From an uncultured Desulfosporosinus sp. (GTDB taxonomy: Bacteria; Bacillota; Desulfitobacteriia; Desulfitobacteriales; Desulfitobacteriaceae): DNA of 51,678 nucleotides. The position numbers and the translations under genes are program-made. Each line of letters begins with the position of its first letter. Position 1 is the first letter of the stretch. The notes beneath the pieces were generated by a model. The model had not been told where the DNA came from and did no database searches. It worked only from the letters and a program-made list of their open reading frames with translations. The DNA lies in the NCBI GenBank assembly GCA_927405585.1, contig CAKMJS010000004.1:1-51678 (forward strand). Reading direction: 5' to 3'. Of the stretch, positions 18,332-26,604 are shown piece after piece.

Positions 18332-20029
18332 ATGACTATTTGGCAAGCAGATGGTTTCTGGATGCGTGATACTATTCATTGGCCGAGACCCGTACTCCCA
18401 CTTTTCGTCTCTTATGGACTAGAGCCCATTGGAATAGGGTCCGAGCGTGCTTATGAGGAATGGTCCATTCCTTCAAAAAAGAATGCTTATATTGTACTTC
18501 ATGGCTATGTATATCAAAGATCTGAGCCTATAGGGGGAGATACTCCCGCCATCATGGAACGGTTTCCCTTTCTATTTCATTTGTGGCGGTTTGATCCGAA
18601 GCTCCGCAAACGAATCAAAGGATTTGAACGTTTTTTAAAAGATAAAGGGTTTGAAGGGTACGTTCATGAGTGGAGAGATCAATGGGCAATAGAAGCTAAC
18701 AATCGTCTTAAACCGATTAGAGATTTTGATCGTACTAACGCTAGCCTCGCTGATCTCGCTGATCATTTAGATCAGTGTTATGAGTACATGTGTTGGTCTT
18801 GGAATCCACATGTTAAAATTGTTATGATAAGTATGCTGATTCGTGAGCGCTGGGTGGAACTTTGTAAAAAACTCTTTAATTTCACTGACTTTGAGGCCTA
18901 CGAATTAGTTCAAAAAAGTGATTCACCAGTTTTTAATACAACGAATCGCCTATTGTCGATAGCTCAACGAGCTGCTTTAGACCCTGCAATAAACAAGCTA
19001 TTATCATTACCCTCTGAAGAGGCACTTGCCAAACTCACTGACACATGGTTCCATCAGGAACTTGAAAAGTTTCTTGACGATGAAGGAGATCGACCCGTCG
19101 ATAGTTTTGAAATGGATCCTACTTGGCGAGAGATGCCAGGGATGGTCGTAAGTATTATTAAGGGATTTATGGATTCTGATTATGATCCCTCAGTGGAAGA
19201 GTTCGATTTTCAAGACTACAGGAATGAACGCATCAAGGAAATTCGCAGGGATCTCACAAGAAAAGATCAAGAAGACTTTGACTACTGGCTTCAATTAGCA
19301 GAACAAGGTCTACCATTGACAGAAATTCATGATTATTCCTTGGCCAATATTCCACTATGTAATGCCCGATATGATGCTATTGAAGCTGGGAAACGTTTTG
19401 TGAAGAAGCAAGTACTAGATAGTCCTGAGGACATGTTTTATCTATACCGAGAAGAATTATCTAATCTTCTAAGGGGAACGACAGACCTAGAAGGAATTAA
19501 AGAGCTTGTAGCTCAGAGAAAAGTAGAGCATAGCTTGAATTTCACGCTCATACCCCCTCAAACGATAGGGAAACCCCCAATTGAGCCACCCTGGAATGTG
19601 TTTCCACCCGTAGTAGCTGATGCGATGAAAATCCTTTTAAGACAAGTGTCTGCCATAGAAGCTCAGCAGAAAGTTAATGAAGGCGTTTCCAAAGAGGGAG
19701 AGATATTTGGAACGCCAGGTTCTTCAGGAATTGCGGAGGGTAACGTGAGGATAATCCATACAGCCGATGAGTTCGACCTTGTTAAAGCGGGAGAAATATT
19801 GGTTTGTCCGTTCACCACTCCGACTTGGACTGTGCTTTTTCCCCATGTGGTTGGATTAGTAACAGACTCTGGTGGAGCTTTGTCCCATGCCGCTATAGTT
19901 GCTCGAGAATACGGACTTCCTTCGGTTGTTGGTACTATTAATGGAACAAAGGTTTTACAAAACGGTCAAAGGATACGCATTGATGGAGCTGAGGGTAAGA
20001 TTCAAATTCTAAGTCTAAGTAAGGAGTAG
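18332..20029 (+). CDS. PEP-utilising (phosphohistidine-domain) subunit of a split dikinase-like enzyme
   Basis: The 565-residue protein ends in a PEP-utiliser mobile domain: GTPGSSGIAEG, LVCPFTTPTWT, then GGALSHAAIVAREYGLPSVVG, with the phosphorylatable His at 519. The first about 450 residues are a helical region of a kind seen in PEP-utilising proteins and in the central part of rifampin phosphotransferase, which I cannot assign more closely. It lacks the ATP-grasp half, which is encoded by the next gene four bases later. Size and division of domains resemble phenylphosphate synthase protein 1 of anaerobic phenol degraders. No UbiD-type carboxylase is nearby, so the phosphoryl acceptor is open. 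Confidence 0.75.
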   Translation: MTIWQADGFWMRDTIHWPRPVLPLFVSYGLEPIGIGSERAYEEWSIPSKKNAYIVLHGYVYQRSEPIGGDTPAIMERFPFLFHLWRFDPKLRKRIKGFERFLKDKGFEGYVHEWRDQWAIEANNRLKPIRDFDRTNASLADLADHLDQCYEYMCWSWNPHVKIVMISMLIRERWVELCKKLFNFTDFEAYELVQKSDSPVFNTTNRLLSIAQRAALDPAINKLLSLPSEEALAKLTDTWFHQELEKFLDDEGDRPVDSFEMDPTWREMPGMVVSIIKGFMDSDYDPSVEEFDFQDYRNERIKEIRRDLTRKDQEDFDYWLQLAEQGLPLTEIHDYSLANIPLCNARYDAIEAGKRFVKKQVLDSPEDMFYLYREELSNLLRGTTDLEGIKELVAQRKVEHSLNFTLIPPQTIGKPPIEPPWNVFPPVVADAMKILLRQVSAIEAQQKVNEGVSKEGEIFGTPGSSGIAEGNVRIIHTADEFDLVKAGEILVCPFTTPTWTVLFPHVVGLVTDSGGALSHAAIVAREYGLPSVVGTINGTKVLQNGQRIRIDGAEGKIQILSLSKE

Positions 20030-20033
20030 CGAG

Positions 20034-20948
20034 ATGGACTATGTTCAATTTCTTCAAGATCTCAGAAGTACGGATCTCGCATTAGCAGGGGGTAAGGGCG
20101 CGAACCTTGGTGAGCTGATGCTTGCAGGGATGATGGTTCCATCAGGGTTTGTTCTCAGCACCAAGGGATATCGACGTTGTGTACCATTGGTCAATCTGTC
20201 GGACCTAGACACAGAAAACCTAGATTCTTTAGCACAGCAAACCAAAGAGATTCAAAAACAGATCGAAAACATCTCTGTCTCAGAGGACGTCGAGTTGGAA
20301 CTAATGGAGGCGTACAGAAGGATGGGCAGTCCATTCGTTGCAGTTCGTTCATCGGCAACCGCAGAAGATTTACCAACTGCTAGCTTTGCTGGTCAACAGG
20401 AAACCTATCTTAACATACAGGGCGAGGGTGCTGTTCTAAATGCGGTGAAAAAGTGCTGGGCTTCACTCTGGTCTTCCCGGGCTGTGCAATACCGTTCTTT
20501 TCGAGGATTTGGGGCAAGTGATGTTGCACTTGCCGTGGTCATTCAAGAAATGGCCCCGCACGATATTTCTGGAGTAGTTTTTACAGTTAATCCACTTTCG
20601 AAGGACGCTATGGAGCTGATTATTAATGCTGCTCCAGGTTTAGGAGAAGCTTTGGTCCAGGGAGAGATTATTCCTGATCAGTGGATAGCCAGACGTTCTG
20701 ATGGTGCCGTCCTAAAATTCACCCCAGCACCTAGAAGAGGACAAGCACCTTCGGCTATATTTCGTTCTCGTCGTCCAGGCAGAGGATGTTTAACCTCTCA
20801 ACAAGTTAAGGAGCTAGCTCAGCAATGCTTAAGGATTGAAGAGCATTTCCATTCAATACCACAGGATATTGAGTGGAGTTATGGCTCAGGAACTTTTTAC
20901 ATGCTTCAAAGCAGGCCAATAACAACTCTTGTAGAGGGTTTATTGTAA
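20034..20948 (+). CDS. PEP-synthase-like ATP-grasp (PPDK_N) subunit
   Basis: The 304-residue protein is the N-terminal ATP-binding half of PEP synthase/PPDK: GGKGANLGELMLAG near 19-32, AVRSSATAEDLPTASFAGQ near 103-121, VIQEMAPHDISGVVFTVNP, and a closing DIEWSYGSG, MLQSRPIT. It ends where the ATP-grasp domain ends and has no His domain. With the upstream gene it makes one complete ATP-to-phosphohistidine module in reversed gene order compared with fused enzymes. It resembles protein 2 of phenylphosphate synthase in domain content. A terminator follows at 20974. Confidence 0.82.
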   Translation: MDYVQFLQDLRSTDLALAGGKGANLGELMLAGMMVPSGFVLSTKGYRRCVPLVNLSDLDTENLDSLAQQTKEIQKQIENISVSEDVELELMEAYRRMGSPFVAVRSSATAEDLPTASFAGQQETYLNIQGEGAVLNAVKKCWASLWSSRAVQYRSFRGFGASDVALAVVIQEMAPHDISGVVFTVNPLSKDAMELIINAAPGLGEALVQGEIIPDQWIARRSDGAVLKFTPAPRRGQAPSAIFRSRRPGRGCLTSQQVKELAQQCLRIEEHFHSIPQDIEWSYGSGTFYMLQSRPITTLVEGLL

Positions 20949-21928: not shown

Positions 21929-22993
21929 ATGAAAAAGGTTATCTTAATCATTAGTTTACTCTTCTCACTTGTTCTTCTAAGCAGTTGCTCAAATAAGGAT
22001 CCTGTAAAGCCTGGTGAGGATAATAAACCAACTCCCCCAGAACCAAAGACTGAACTTCTCACGATTAAGGACTATTATTCTTATAAAGAAAACACTAAGT
22101 ATGTATATGAGGGTGAAGGAAATGAGTACGCCTCATACACAGTCTTCATTGATTATAAATCCGGAAACCGTGTTCAACTTAGATCTAATAACGGTGGCAC
22201 GGAAATGGTGAAGGTTCTAGATAATAATAATGGCGAGCTCAGAGTACTTTTCTCAAGAGGGGAATGTTATTACAGGGAAAATCTAACCCAAGTAGAAAGT
22301 AGTCCTGTGGATATTCTACTAAAAGAACCCTTAGAGACTGGAACCAACTGGACCTTGTCAGACGGTAGAAAACGCTCTATTTCGAATCTGAAAGTTGATG
22401 TAACTACCCCTATGGGCACGTATCAAACGCTAGAGGTTAAAACAGAGGGTAAAGATGACATGATACTCGACTATTATGCACCCGACATTGGTCTTGTTAG
22501 ATCGGTTTTCACTTCAAATGGAACTGAGGTTACTTCAACCTTAAGGGAACTCAAGACTAATGTACCCCTTACTCAAACTGTTAGCTTTTATTATCCAAAT
22601 GCAAATGTTGATAAACTTGTGTTTGTGAATAAGCAACTTTCCTTCAAAACGAATGATATTACTAAAATCATTTTTGAGAATGCCTTTAAAGATTTACCAC
22701 AAGGCAATATCGCAAAGGTATTGGGTCCAAACGTAAAAATTAAAAGTTTGTATTTGAATAAGGACAATAGGGCTTATATAGATTTCTCAAAAGAGTTGTT
22801 GAGCGAAATGAATGCGGGTTCTGGCTATGAAAACTTAATTTTACAAAGTATTACCAACACGATCGGAACTTATTACGGAGTTAATATGGTTTATTTAACG
22901 ATCGAAGGTAATCCATACGTTTCTGGACATATTGAGATGAAAAAAGGTGAGTTCTTCACAGTGAATTTAGCAAATAGTGTAGAACTAAAATAG
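21929..22993 (+). CDS. GerMN-domain lipoprotein
   Basis: The 354-residue protein has a lipoprotein signal with lipobox LSSC near residues 17-20 and a Pro-rich spacer. A middle beta-rich region follows (KDYYSYKENTKYVYEGEGNEY), then a C-terminal GerMN domain: VSFYYPNANVDKLV, LYLNKDNRAYIDFS, LQSITNTIGTYYGV, VYLTIEGN. GerMN domains occur in GerM of sporulation and germination and in other Gram-positive envelope lipoproteins. AAAGGAGG precedes the ATG. The SbcD-like gene starts 16 bases after its stop, so the three genes may be one operon. Confidence 0.85.
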   Translation: MKKVILIISLLFSLVLLSSCSNKDPVKPGEDNKPTPPEPKTELLTIKDYYSYKENTKYVYEGEGNEYASYTVFIDYKSGNRVQLRSNNGGTEMVKVLDNNNGELRVLFSRGECYYRENLTQVESSPVDILLKEPLETGTNWTLSDGRKRSISNLKVDVTTPMGTYQTLEVKTEGKDDMILDYYAPDIGLVRSVFTSNGTEVTSTLRELKTNVPLTQTVSFYYPNANVDKLVFVNKQLSFKTNDITKIIFENAFKDLPQGNIAKVLGPNVKIKSLYLNKDNRAYIDFSKELLSEMNAGSGYENLILQSITNTIGTYYGVNMVYLTIEGNPYVSGHIEMKKGEFFTVNLANSVELK

Positions 22994-23009: not shown

Positions 23010-24173
23010 ATGGCTCCGTGCGTACGATTTTTACAGTGTGCGGGCTGTCGTTTTGACAGCCCTTCTTGGGATGGGCCAGACGACTGGACAACTCAGAGAA
23101 ATAAAGATTTGTGGCAGACCTTTGAAGTAGCCCTCTCGATGTGCCAAGCAGAGAAGGTTGATTTTCTGTTTCTGACGGGAGATTTATTCGAACAGGAGTA
23201 TGTACGTAAGGAAACCGTGGAGCGAGTTGCGAAATCGTTAGCTATGTTGAAGAACACGAAGGTATTTATTACTCCCGGTGAAAGAGACCCACTTGTTATG
23301 ACATCCGCCTACCGACTAGCTGTATGGCCGAATAATGTGCATATATTCTCAGGTGGAATCAGCAGCGTAATAATTCCTTCCCAAAATGTCACAATATATG
23401 GTGCGGGTTGGACAGCTTATCATCAAGAAGCTGCATTTCTTGACGGGTTTGAGTTGACCCGGGATGGAACAATTCCGATTATGCTTCTCCATGCTGAGCT
23501 GAAATCTATAAAAAACACCGAAGGGTTTATCCCTATTCTACCAGAGCATATTGAATCTAGTGGTTTGGCCTACTTAGCCTTGGGACATAGGGAAGAATGG
23601 AGTGGCCTCCAGAAAGCCGGAGAAACAGTTTGGACTGATAGTGGTTTTCTCGAGGCTAGAAGTTTTTGCGAAAGCGGTCCCCATGGTGTGATTATAGGAG
23701 AGGTTGAGCAAGATACTGCTCGGATTGAATTTCGAGAGCTGGGGAAACGTCATTACATTGAAAAGAGTTTCGCGATCCAAACCCCAGAAGTTCTTATTTC
23801 TAAATTATTATCAGAAACAAGCCAAGAAGAACGGCAAAGAGATTTATTTAGGGTTAAGTTGGAGGGGCCAATTCGAAATGTAGAATCGGTTGTTCTTCCG
23901 TTGCAAAAGCTATTAGCTGATAAGTTCCGCTTCGTTGAGGTTGTTCTATCTGAAGGAGAGACGAACTCACGATTTAAACTGGACTTAGATACGCCTTTAA
24001 AGACAATGGCTGGAAATGGGTACGGGTTTCCTACTTTCAACGAAATACTAATCAATAAGCTTGAAGAACGACAGATTAGTGAATTAAGTACAGAAAACAG
24101 TAGATACTGGGAGCTTGTGATGAAAATCGGACTGTCAGCGCTTGCACAGGGACGGATTGATGATGAGAATTGA
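23010..24173 (+). CDS. SbcD/YhaO-like metallophosphoesterase with degenerate active site
   Basis: The 387-residue protein keeps the outline of the Mre11/SbcD/YhaO exonuclease family: FLQCAGCRFDSPSW, AEKVDFLFLTGDLFE, VFITPGERDP, MLLHAELK and YLALGHREEW. The metal ligands are largely replaced. The expected D-x-H of motif I is G12 and R14. The GNHD motif reads GERD. The final GH-x-H reads GHRE. Only Asp58, His161 and His193 remain. The C-terminal capping region appears full length and the frame is intact, so this looks like a maintained pseudoenzyme, not a decaying gene. It overlaps the SbcC-like gene. Confidence 0.75.
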   Translation: MAPCVRFLQCAGCRFDSPSWDGPDDWTTQRNKDLWQTFEVALSMCQAEKVDFLFLTGDLFEQEYVRKETVERVAKSLAMLKNTKVFITPGERDPLVMTSAYRLAVWPNNVHIFSGGISSVIIPSQNVTIYGAGWTAYHQEAAFLDGFELTRDGTIPIMLLHAELKSIKNTEGFIPILPEHIESSGLAYLALGHREEWSGLQKAGETVWTDSGFLEARSFCESGPHGVIIGEVEQDTARIEFRELGKRHYIEKSFAIQTPEVLISKLLSETSQEERQRDLFRVKLEGPIRNVESVVLPLQKLLADKFRFVEVVLSEGETNSRFKLDLDTPLKTMAGNGYGFPTFNEILINKLEERQISELSTENSRYWELVMKIGLSALAQGRIDDEN

Positions 24174-26604
24174 ACGAATTATTAGTAGTAAATTGAAAGG
24201 CATAGGGGATGTTGATTGGACATTTCCCAATGGCCCCGTTTTTATCTTTTGTGAAGATAGAAACAATCTAAAAACGTTAGGTACTTTACTTTATGATTTA
24301 TTTTATGAACAAATAACATCCCTTACTTTAAAAACTCAAAACAGCAAGGGTTTATTAGAGGTGTGGATAGCTGGAGATAAGTCTAGCTATCACATACGTC
24401 GAAACTACGATCAGCAGAGCAATGAATCAGTTAGCCCTTCAACTCTAGTAACTGATGAGGGGACGGGAGAGAAGGTGTCCTTGCCAGAAGATTTGACACT
24501 TGGAGAATACATATTTCAGCTTAATCAACTGACCTTTCGTCAGGGAGTGGTCGTTAACTGGCCGGTTAATAATCATCTGGATCATCTCAGACTACAGGTC
24601 AACAACCTTCGACAAGGGGGAGATGAAGGATTTTCGCTCATGAAAGTGAGAGCATCGCTGGCGGGAGCAAAAAAGCGAGTAAGCGAACAAAAAGGAAGTA
24701 TGGAACTAGTTAAGGCTGAGTTTGATGCACGGCGGAGTGATTGGGAAGCTGCACATCGACAGCAAGACGAGGAACGGTTGCTTCTCATTGAGATCAAGAA
24801 TCTGCAAGAAAATGAAGGGATTTTATCCGAGAGGATTGCATTAGGCCAAAGAATTCAGGAACGCTTAACGTTGCTTACCCTAAATCCTGACTATAGGGAG
24901 TTACGCCAGCTCCGTGAGGAGATATACCAACTAGAAGAGCGGCTTCGAGCTGTTGAGTCGAATTTGAGGACGCTTACGAATGAGTCAAAAGTTGATTGGA
25001 CATTGATTGAAACCCTGCGGGAAGAGTGTATTGAATGGGCAAGTCTTCAAGATCAGGTTGAACGTTTAGGTGCCCAAGCACAAATGCAGTCGGAACAAAT
25101 TGCTGAGCTAAAAGGTTCTTTACAAACGTCAGGATTCGAGGGATTGACGAATGGCGAAGACAAACGCTTGCTCACGGCGGAAACGGAAAGAGCTGAGGCT
25201 CAGGATGAACTTAATGAACTCACAATCTCCAAAAAGGATCTCGAGAATACTGAACGCATGTATTTAGAAGAGAAAGCCATTCTTTTAAATTTTGGAGATA
25301 TAGCAAGAGTAACTGAAACCGATAAAGTCAAGATTGAGCAACGAGAGAGGCACTTGAAGCAATGGCAAAGCTCAAAAATCGGAGGCTCGCTAGACCGAAA
25401 ACTTCGAAAACATTTTAAAGGAATTTGTATTGAAGAAAAGCTAGCGGATCGACTAAGCCAATACTACAAAGGCTATCAGACCTCAAATTTCGAGGAATTC
25501 ACGAGCCGACTTAAGGAGTTTCGCGACCAGCAAATGTTAGTTGAAAAACTACAAATCCAGATTGAGCGACTGCAAGAGAGAATAGTACGGGAAGATATGC
25601 TTCTCAAGACAGTGCTTTACCGCTCTGAAATCTTAAAACAAGCGTTTGCTGCGTCCAAGGTGTCAGATTTTCCTGAATGGTTAAACGGTTGGGAAGCATT
25701 CCAGATAAAAAAACAGCAATTGGGTCTTATGCTAAAGGAACAGCAGCTTTTACTGGAACAGTCCACCATGGCAGAGAAAAAGTTGTATATGTGCTCAGAA
25801 CAATTACGAGAAAAGTTGGAGACTTGGAACACACTTGGCACCGATAGAGACACAGTGCTAGTTACATTGTTTAAGGTTGCTAGCCATCTGCGGGCGAAAG
25901 GCGAGTCGGAGAGGGAAATCGCAGCGCATTCAAAGAAGTATAATAGCTTACTCGGCGATCGAAATATGGAACACCTTGTTAATAAATTGGAGCCTCTAGC
26001 CGATTTGGAGCGCGAATTACGGGTTTTCGATGACGAACGCTTGCTAGAACTAACCGCTTGGCAAGACGAACGCCTAGAAATTCGTAAGCAACGAGAAAAG
26101 TTAGAACAATGCCTTAAGGATAGCCATAAATTTATCTCGTTGACCACCTTAGAGAAAAAAATTGAAACTCTAAAACAACAATGGAAGGCCTACGAGAACT
26201 TGCACCGCGCTATAGATGATGCTCAACTCTTATTAGAATTATCCTGGCAAGAATGGGATACTAAGTACGGAAAGGTACTCAACAATGAAATGAAGTGGAT
26301 ATTGAGTAATATATCTTTCTCTATTGACCATGGAGCAATTCAAAGAGATCTGGCAAAGGTAAAGTGTGATTATTTTGCTTATCGTATGGCCCTTGCACAG
26401 TTAACCCTCGGCGGATACTTAGAAGCACCCTTGTTATTCTCAATAGGAGATTATGATGAGGGAGAAAGGTTCTGGGTAGATATTATTGAGTATTTCCGTA
26501 AACTCTCCCATACGAGGCAGATAATTTTTATCACCTCGGATCCTCAACTGGGGGAGAAACTTATTGGTTCCGGTTGGTCTTCCTTAAATATGAGACAAAA
26601 GTAA
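24163..26604 (+). CDS. SbcC/YhaN-like coiled-coil protein lacking ATPase motifs
   Basis: The 813-residue protein starts MRIERIISSKLKGIGDVDW, like the N-terminus of YhaN/SbcC ATPases. Two long coiled-coil stretches (about 150-330 and 400-700) and a C-terminal block follow. The P-loop site, expected as GPNEAGKST, reads CEDRNNLKT at residues 30-38. The Walker B region, expected as LILDD, reads LLFSIGDYD near 757-765. The LSxG signature reads DLAKVK. ATP binding therefore looks lost, although the IIFITSDP strand after Walker B survives. ATG at 24160 or 24163 overlaps the end of the SbcD-like gene; a TTG at 24142 is less likely. It is the partner of the upstream gene. Confidence 0.75.
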   Translation: MRIERIISSKLKGIGDVDWTFPNGPVFIFCEDRNNLKTLGTLLYDLFYEQITSLTLKTQNSKGLLEVWIAGDKSSYHIRRNYDQQSNESVSPSTLVTDEGTGEKVSLPEDLTLGEYIFQLNQLTFRQGVVVNWPVNNHLDHLRLQVNNLRQGGDEGFSLMKVRASLAGAKKRVSEQKGSMELVKAEFDARRSDWEAAHRQQDEERLLLIEIKNLQENEGILSERIALGQRIQERLTLLTLNPDYRELRQLREEIYQLEERLRAVESNLRTLTNESKVDWTLIETLREECIEWASLQDQVERLGAQAQMQSEQIAELKGSLQTSGFEGLTNGEDKRLLTAETERAEAQDELNELTISKKDLENTERMYLEEKAILLNFGDIARVTETDKVKIEQRERHLKQWQSSKIGGSLDRKLRKHFKGICIEEKLADRLSQYYKGYQTSNFEEFTSRLKEFRDQQMLVEKLQIQIERLQERIVREDMLLKTVLYRSEILKQAFAASKVSDFPEWLNGWEAFQIKKQQLGLMLKEQQLLLEQSTMAEKKLYMCSEQLREKLETWNTLGTDRDTVLVTLFKVASHLRAKGESEREIAAHSKKYNSLLGDRNMEHLVNKLEPLADLERELRVFDDERLLELTAWQDERLEIRKQREKLEQCLKDSHKFISLTTLEKKIETLKQQWKAYENLHRAIDDAQLLLELSWQEWDTKYGKVLNNEMKWILSNISFSIDHGAIQRDLAKVKCDYFAYRMALAQLTLGGYLEAPLLFSIGDYDEGERFWVDIIEYFRKLSHTRQIIFITSDPQLGEKLIGSGWSSLNMRQK

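Follow-up and report, generated by a model that had tools for sequence, protein, structure and literature searches.

We have found that a stretch of 51,678 nucleotides from an uncultured Desulfosporosinus sp. (contig CAKMJS010000004.1 of assembly GCA_927405585.1, referred to here at its full length as the window) encodes a pair of proteins, D and C, that resemble the nuclease and the ATPase of Mre11–Rad50 complexes and have lost the catalytic motifs of both. By comparing the two genes with their orthologs and with intact relatives we show that the losses are shared and have a single origin, and that the genes are under purifying selection, co-occur and have repeatedly become fused. The reading we favour, to which we would give a probability of roughly 0.55, is that D and C form a conserved pseudo-enzyme complex of SbcEF-type descent that acts as an ATP-independent binding scaffold, probably in DNA maintenance. 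The genes and the sites within them are as follows.

23010..24173, + strand: gene D, Mre11/SbcD-like pseudonuclease of 387 residues, uninterrupted open reading frame (ORF)
23043..23051, + strand: former motif I (DxH) of D, now G12-C13-R14, placed by alignment
23277..23288, + strand: former GNHD of D, now G90-E91-R92-D93, placed by alignment
23583..23594, + strand: former GHxH of D, now G192-H193-R194-E195, placed by alignment
24108..24140, + strand: conserved C-terminal helix of D, W367..A377, with I373, G374 and A377 invariant in 25 aligned orthologs
24163..26604, + strand: gene C, Rad50/SbcC-like pseudo-ATPase with long coiled coils, 813 residues, uninterrupted ORF
24250..24276, + strand: former P-loop of C, CEDRNNLKT, residues 30-38, placed by alignment
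26362..26373, + strand: place of the deleted ATP-binding cassette (ABC) signature of C (LSNGxxDQ), about residues 734-737, an alignment gap
26440..26445, + strand: former Walker B DD of C, now S760-I761, placed by alignment

Catalytic motifs, selection and predicted folds

The two frames are uninterrupted and overlap by 11 bases, as originally predicted, and their coordinates stand. Searches of Pfam return Metallophos for D, below the cut-off, and no relevant family for C, and searches of NCBIfam return weak Mre11/SbcD matches for D (best E 4e-06) and leave C without a match. A profile of the D ortholog set reaches solved Mre11 (E 3e-06), and that of the C ortholog set matches solved Rad50 weakly over its N-terminal 114 positions (E 0.004).

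We aligned 39 D orthologs that lack the motifs (hereafter dead) with 52 intact relatives from Geosporobacter, Anaerosolibacter, Clostridium, Oscillospiraceae and two genomes of the same order, the intact set being drawn from the best 80 of 339 confirmed loci; two partial, dead-looking D frames (L147 and L161) and the D fragments of genomes G004 and G009 stand outside the 39. Metal-ligand roles were assigned after P. furiosus Mre11. In the window D, ADFH of the intact relatives has become AGCR, GNHD has become GERD, and GHxH has become GHRE. The Asp of DxH is found in none of the dead orthologs, all 39 of which carry Gly, and in 51 of the 52 intact proteins, the remaining one having a gap; its His persists in a single dead ortholog. 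Neither the Asn and His of GNHD nor the second His of GHxH occurs in any dead ortholog (0/39 in each case), and all are present in 52/52 intact proteins. Dead D fragments from G064, G070 and G004 also lack the motifs, and that of G004 has Ala at the place of the Asp. Conservation has persisted elsewhere in the protein: 31 positions carry one and the same residue in the dead and the intact group at a conservation of at least 90%, 18 are newly conserved in the dead group, and five have switched between near-invariant residues, including Y to D210 and K to H225.

The losses in C are equally consistent. The 22 intact partners used for comparison are those with a GxNExGKS/T P-loop and more than 850 residues; 13 other partner frames were found, and 17 of the 52 intact loci gave no partner frame. 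In the window C, the P-loop GENEAGKST has become CEDRNNLKT, Walker B LDD has become FSI, and the signature LSNGxxDQ is a gap. The P-loop Lys occurs in 0/34 C orthologs (five of these being fusions without the stretch) versus 22/22 intact partners, and among the 33 rows that reach the C-lobe (the 34 minus L097, which stops at a contig end) the signature Ser and Gly, present in 22/22 intact partners, are gapped in all. Walker B has Asp at its first position in 0/33 rows and Asp or Glu at its second in 0/33; the Walker B Asp is present in 22/22 intact partners. A CxxC zinc hook motif is found in 0/34 C rows. By hydropathy, a segment of high hydrophobicity close to the coil apex, probably a membrane hairpin, is present in 24/24 intact partners and in 12/12 further intact partner frames and in none of the 34 C proteins, L077 alone having a borderline N-terminal stretch. 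Among the 13 other partner frames, eleven show a P-loop variant, PNE or SNE followed by xGKST and lacking the first Gly, together with Walker B LDD, that of L154 is cut but has a P-loop, and that of L189 is unrelated. We note that the variant P-loop (mostly APNExGKST, with Lys and Walker B kept) belongs to Oscillospiraceae/Clostridiales loci (L165, L173, L175, L177, L178, L181, L184-L186, L191 and L193).

The alignments with intact relatives put every motif of both proteins where the original prediction had them, and we reject misplacement of the motifs as an explanation. None of the orthologs examined (39 for D, 34 for C) has intact motifs; a recent loss confined to one genome is likewise rejected, since the losses are common to orthologs. 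Ratios of nonsynonymous to synonymous substitution rates (dN/dS), estimated by the Nei-Gojobori method on the closest pairs, are 0.15-0.29 for D (21 closest dead pairs; the single intact pair listed gives 0.10) and 0.16-0.31 for C (22 closest pairs), as against 0.08-0.17 for SbcD (5 usable of 8 pairs). On these estimates D and C are constrained, less so than the active enzyme, and the values lie far from one, in keeping with the earlier proposal that selection keeps the pair. Because the losses are fixed across orthologs whose frames stay open under purifying selection, the loss of motifs is not a matter of chance.

The folds are predicted still to be those of Mre11 for D, read from the model of a fused ortholog, and of a Rad50/SMC head for C. 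The AlphaFold model of the window C (predicted local distance difference test score, pLDDT, 84.6; predicted template modelling score, pTM, 0.43) has Rad50 and SMC heads as its best matches (Z 18.9-18.4), archaeal Rad50 matching with Z 18.4 over 316 residues. In the AlphaFold model of the fused protein of D. metallidurans, residues 1-321 best match archaeal Mre11 (Z 19.5, root-mean-square deviation 3.6, 286 residues), other phosphoesterases scoring Z 14.7 and below. Helices are found in this model at the place equivalent to W367..A377, and the conserved C-terminal helix of D sits where Mre11 proteins carry the Rad50-binding domain, which suggests that it may have a binding role.

Descent, distribution and fused forms

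In a midpoint-rooted tree of 81 D rows, the dead proteins make up one side of a branch (33 versus 48) with support of 100/100; this branch has a stem of 0.88 and appears in all 200 bootstrap trees. Three dead-looking frames (L139, L147 and L161) and four intact-looking ones (L163, L168, L171 and L176) are absent from the tree. Judged from these sequences, the dead clade has a single origin and lies beside intact clostridial pairs that we take to be of the YhaO/YhaN (SbcEF) type. The C family aligns with the intact Rad50/YhaN-like partners over the whole length of C (hhalign, 99.9%, E 1.7e-36, 793 columns); on the intact relatives themselves, NCBIfam gives only sub-threshold Mre11/SbcD and Rad50/SMC-like matches. 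The parent of D and C thus appears to have been a pair of the YhaO/YhaN (SbcEF) type and not SbcCD itself; the earlier description of an SbcCD-like pair holds in that both proteins are Mre11/Rad50-like, while descent from SbcCD is not supported. Full intact YhaO-like genes in the order turned up only in two genomes (G038 and G040) that have no C-family match, and in genomes with D the other YhaO-like matches are weak and partial (E 1.3e-7 or worse); the dead pair therefore looks like a degenerate ortholog and not a spare copy. An active second copy of D's family was sought in the source genome and not found, the matches besides D being weak and partial.

Within the order, the C profile finds a match in 39 of 73 genomes, in 27 of 46 better assemblies and in 7 of 22 genera; the 34 unmatched genomes include some incomplete ones, and there was no match in nine further genomes of the class. 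Within the window's genus, 25 of 28 relatives of the source genome have D and 24 have C. The named loci come from Desulfosporosinus species, Peptococcaceae and Gracilibacter metagenome-assembled genomes and Candidatus Dichloromethanomonas, and the pair spans sulfate-reducing and dechlorinating bacteria; genus g10 we take to be Dehalobacter, and genome G037 to be Dehalobacter restrictus PER-K23.

D and C are encoded as one frame of 1,063-1,187 residues (REARRANGEMENTS) in six loci (L083, L099, L100, L101, L104 and L135). Five of them match C only from residue 124-133 onward, the N-terminal ATPase lobe being gone, and L083 matches it from residue 42. In G070 the end of D and the coils of C share one frame on another contig, and the N-lobe of Dehalobacter-type C is shortened (profile positions 1-79, then 117 onward). 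Two shortened fusions, L108 and L109 (genomes G048 and G052; 565 and 573 residues), retain two pieces of coil beside the dead nuclease domain and stop close to contig ends, and it is possible that decay or an assembly effect accounts for their length. In G037 C is split into two overlapping frames (L107:7953-10224), unlike in the other g10 genomes examined. Common to all of these fused, short and split forms are the dead nuclease domain and the base-proximal coil.

Possible functions of the pair

In the history we propose, a membrane-anchored Mre11–Rad50-like pair of the YhaO/YhaN (SbcEF) type would have been stripped of three things: the metal site of the nuclease, the ATPase and the hydrophobic hairpin. 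The simplest timing for these losses is before Desulfosporosinus split from the Dehalobacter-type family. What would remain is a soluble, non-enzymatic architecture in which an Mre11-shaped D is joined to the coiled coil of C. The C-terminal helices of D would grip the base of that coil, and the coils together with D, probably a dimer, would tether DNA or repair proteins without ATP, the pair probably serving DNA maintenance alongside a separate SbcCD. Since the cutting and the fuel-burning parts are both gone, the pair most likely works by holding and not by chemistry; fusions lacking the ATPase N-lobe speak against any use of nucleotide, and since even the shortest forms have kept the dead nuclease domain, binding by D would seem to be central to the function.

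The step from a binding scaffold to DNA maintenance is the weakest in this argument. We favour DNA maintenance over a role at the envelope because the parent has been linked to break repair, the hairpin has been lost and glycosylase genes recur nearby. Among the 37 dead-pair loci whose neighbourhoods we examined, some with incomplete flanks, an Fpg-type glycosylase gene lies 1.1-2.4 kb upstream of D on the same strand in 12 Desulfosporosinus loci (L082-L091, L093 and L096; domains seen in one). MutY comes after the pair in four Dehalobacter-type loci (L102, L103, L105 and L107) and overlaps the start of the pair in L098 (G029). In hand-picked genomes there are 1-3 Fpg-type genes (24 genomes) and 1-3 HhH-GPD genes (14 genomes), numbers at which repeated adjacency in three lineages would, on an informal reckoning, rarely be expected by chance. 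These neighbours could possibly link the pair to the repair of 8-oxoguanine (oxidised DNA). A more specific version of our reading, which we regard as improbable, is that the SbcEF scaffold has come to serve strict anaerobes as a passive clamp or bridge, one that organises how Fpg and MutY repair oxidised DNA by base excision, in some genera as a single-chain fusion without the ATPase N-lobe.

Several observations weigh against a non-catalytic scaffold in DNA maintenance. Some metal ligands are left in D (Asp58 in 24/39 dead orthologs, the other 15 having Asn; His161 in 33/39; His193 in 30/39), and D may through them bind metal weakly. D has a higher dN/dS than SbcD in 5/5 pairs measured for both, and the short forms of G048 and G052 and the split form of G037 suggest that these genomes may be losing the function or be able to do without it. 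We saw no charge shift, the mean isoelectric point being equal in the dead and intact proteins, and the model of the fused D. metallidurans protein is of moderate quality (pLDDT 74.6, pTM 0.41). The glycosylase link is a post hoc theme, its independent arrangements number three at most, and the window itself shows no such link. Regulation by LexA is rejected: the window holds 14 LexA-like matches against 12.5 expected, a number that 36 of 100 shuffles reach, with none between 21400 and 23010, directly upstream of D, and two inside D and C. Six dead loci (L074, L087, L089, L090, L099 and L100) have LexA-box-like matches upstream of D, all at the level of two mismatches and without shuffle control, as has one intact locus.

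It is also conceivable, if unlikely, that the dead pair is a regulator or decoy of active SbcCD that forms mixed complexes or competes for DNA ends and so tempers end-processing. Many pseudoenzymes regulate active relatives, and an SbcD-family match above the cut-off is present in 53 of 60 genomes, including the source genome, whose separate SbcD (G000:C13) has intact motifs and whose SbcC has a P-loop, LSGG and CxxC, so that the check for a second, canonical sbcCD proposed with the original prediction comes out positive. The parent of D and C looks, however, to be of the YhaO/YhaN type and not SbcCD, and G029 has the pair and no SbcD-family match (this genome being 91% complete). Moreover, among 16 other hand-picked genomes searched, the SbcD type of the source genome is found in full only in G039, with a short fragment in G007, and such variation of SbcD type within the genus makes a conserved, specific partner surface unlikely. 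We note that the source SbcD (L204 / L113, G000:C13:9471-10628) is 72% identical to that of the Dehalobacter-type G039 and 75% identical to the fragment in G007, that other Desulfosporosinus with an SbcD match have a different SbcD-like frame of 425-497 residues, and that the sbcCD operon may have been exchanged. A second Fpg-type gene of the source genome lies about 15 kb from sbcCD on the same contig. SbcD-like phosphoesterase matches also occur inside frames of 1,034-1,309 residues (G011:C1:98749-99531, G041:C13:265715-266485, G002:C11:9684-9986 and G015:C1:2593473-2593694), which are perhaps other phosphoesterase fusions.

The original prediction had pointed to a sporulation or envelope link on account of the gene that precedes D:

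21929..22993, + strand: upstream gene for a GerMN-domain lipoprotein (Germane domain, E 8.4e-14)

D starts 16 bases past the end of this ORF (22993), as had been noted, and from this spacing the two genes are possibly co-transcribed in the window, the GerMN gene standing outside the conserved unit. A scaffold of the envelope or of sporulation that works with this lipoprotein could explain why a GerMN homolog is found in 13 of the 37 loci (in 12 it precedes D by about 1.1 kb, in one the offset differs) and why an M23 peptidase-type gene lies downstream in 11 (Pfam domain seen in one); a LapA-like gene, named by reading, is also present in 11. All 13 GerMN loci belong to the window's genus, however, and the sequence retrieved for the other 24 yielded no homolog (L076 having no upstream sequence). 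The pair is present in Dehalobacter restrictus (G037), for which the portion of the literature consulted reports no spores (PMC3910700), and C has no membrane segment by hydropathy, the ancestral hairpin having been lost, not gained. We thus consider an envelope role quite unlikely, and the predicted link was not upheld.

There is, in our judgement, just as small a chance that D is a changed enzyme that uses the leftover ligands D58, H161, H193 and D93 together with the new conserved D210, H225 and Trp residues for other chemistry. In favour of this are D93, which is retained in 39/39 dead orthologs, the frequency of H161 and the near-invariant switches described above. Such an enzyme would have to tolerate Asn for D58 in 15/39 orthologs and the lack of H193 in 9/39 and of H161 in 6/39, and the ATPase motifs of its partner are gone as well. 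That the genes are decaying without function is very unlikely: the patchy matches of the C profile in the order, the split and short forms of C and the higher dN/dS of D relative to SbcD would fit decay, but dN/dS of 0.15-0.31, long frames that are open in nearly all orthologs of two families and the old and newly conserved positions of D do not.

A viral origin is rejected, as viral contigs gave one pattern match and no relative. For a defence system there was no convincing match: PADLOC defence models match D partially (E 0.002 and 0.0062) and C not at all. A scan for promoters and terminators gave a signal no higher than in shuffles. Elsewhere in the window, at 18332-20948 and downstream of a TetR-type regulator, a phosphoenolpyruvate (PEP)-synthase-like enzyme is encoded as two adjacent ORFs in reversed order, the PEP-utilising mobile domain coming first and the ATP-binding PPDK_N domain second.

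Relation to known systems

We found no description of such a pair in the titles and abstracts of the open-licence papers that our literature search returned. The system it most resembles is YhaO/YhaN (SbcEF), SbcE being YhaN of Bacillus subtilis: the genes are adjacent, and D and C are full-length homologs of an intact metallophosphoesterase and a long-coil ABC-ATPase, a clostridial pair that we take to be of the YhaO/YhaN kind. Unlike that pair, D and C have no nuclease motifs, P-loop, signature, Walker B or hydrophobic hairpin. In published work, SbcEF is said to be implicated in break repair, with a role described as poorly characterised (PMC6452273), yhaONM of B. pumilus is called a putative double-strand-break repair cluster, and yhaO and yhaN are placed under lexA/SOS and found to be induced by H2O2 (PMC3896406).

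The model of C also has a head that matches those of SMC-type coiled-coil ATPases (Z about 16-19), but C has no nucleotide site and its partner is Mre11-like; SMC ATPases partner with kleisin. SbcCD and Mre11–Rad50 share with D and C the pairing of the genes, the Mre11 fold predicted for D from the fused ortholog and the Rad50 head and coil predicted for C, and differ from them in having a metal site, ATPase motifs and a CxxC zinc hook. Mre11–Rad50 complexes are defined by an ATP-driven clamp that is coupled to a nuclease. Here selection has maintained their shape in a lineage where both activities are gone, which suggests that a scaffold can be of use by itself. Such a lineage provides a natural separation-of-function system, in which it becomes testable which functions of these complexes, among them tethering, end-bridging and recruiting, need no chemistry.

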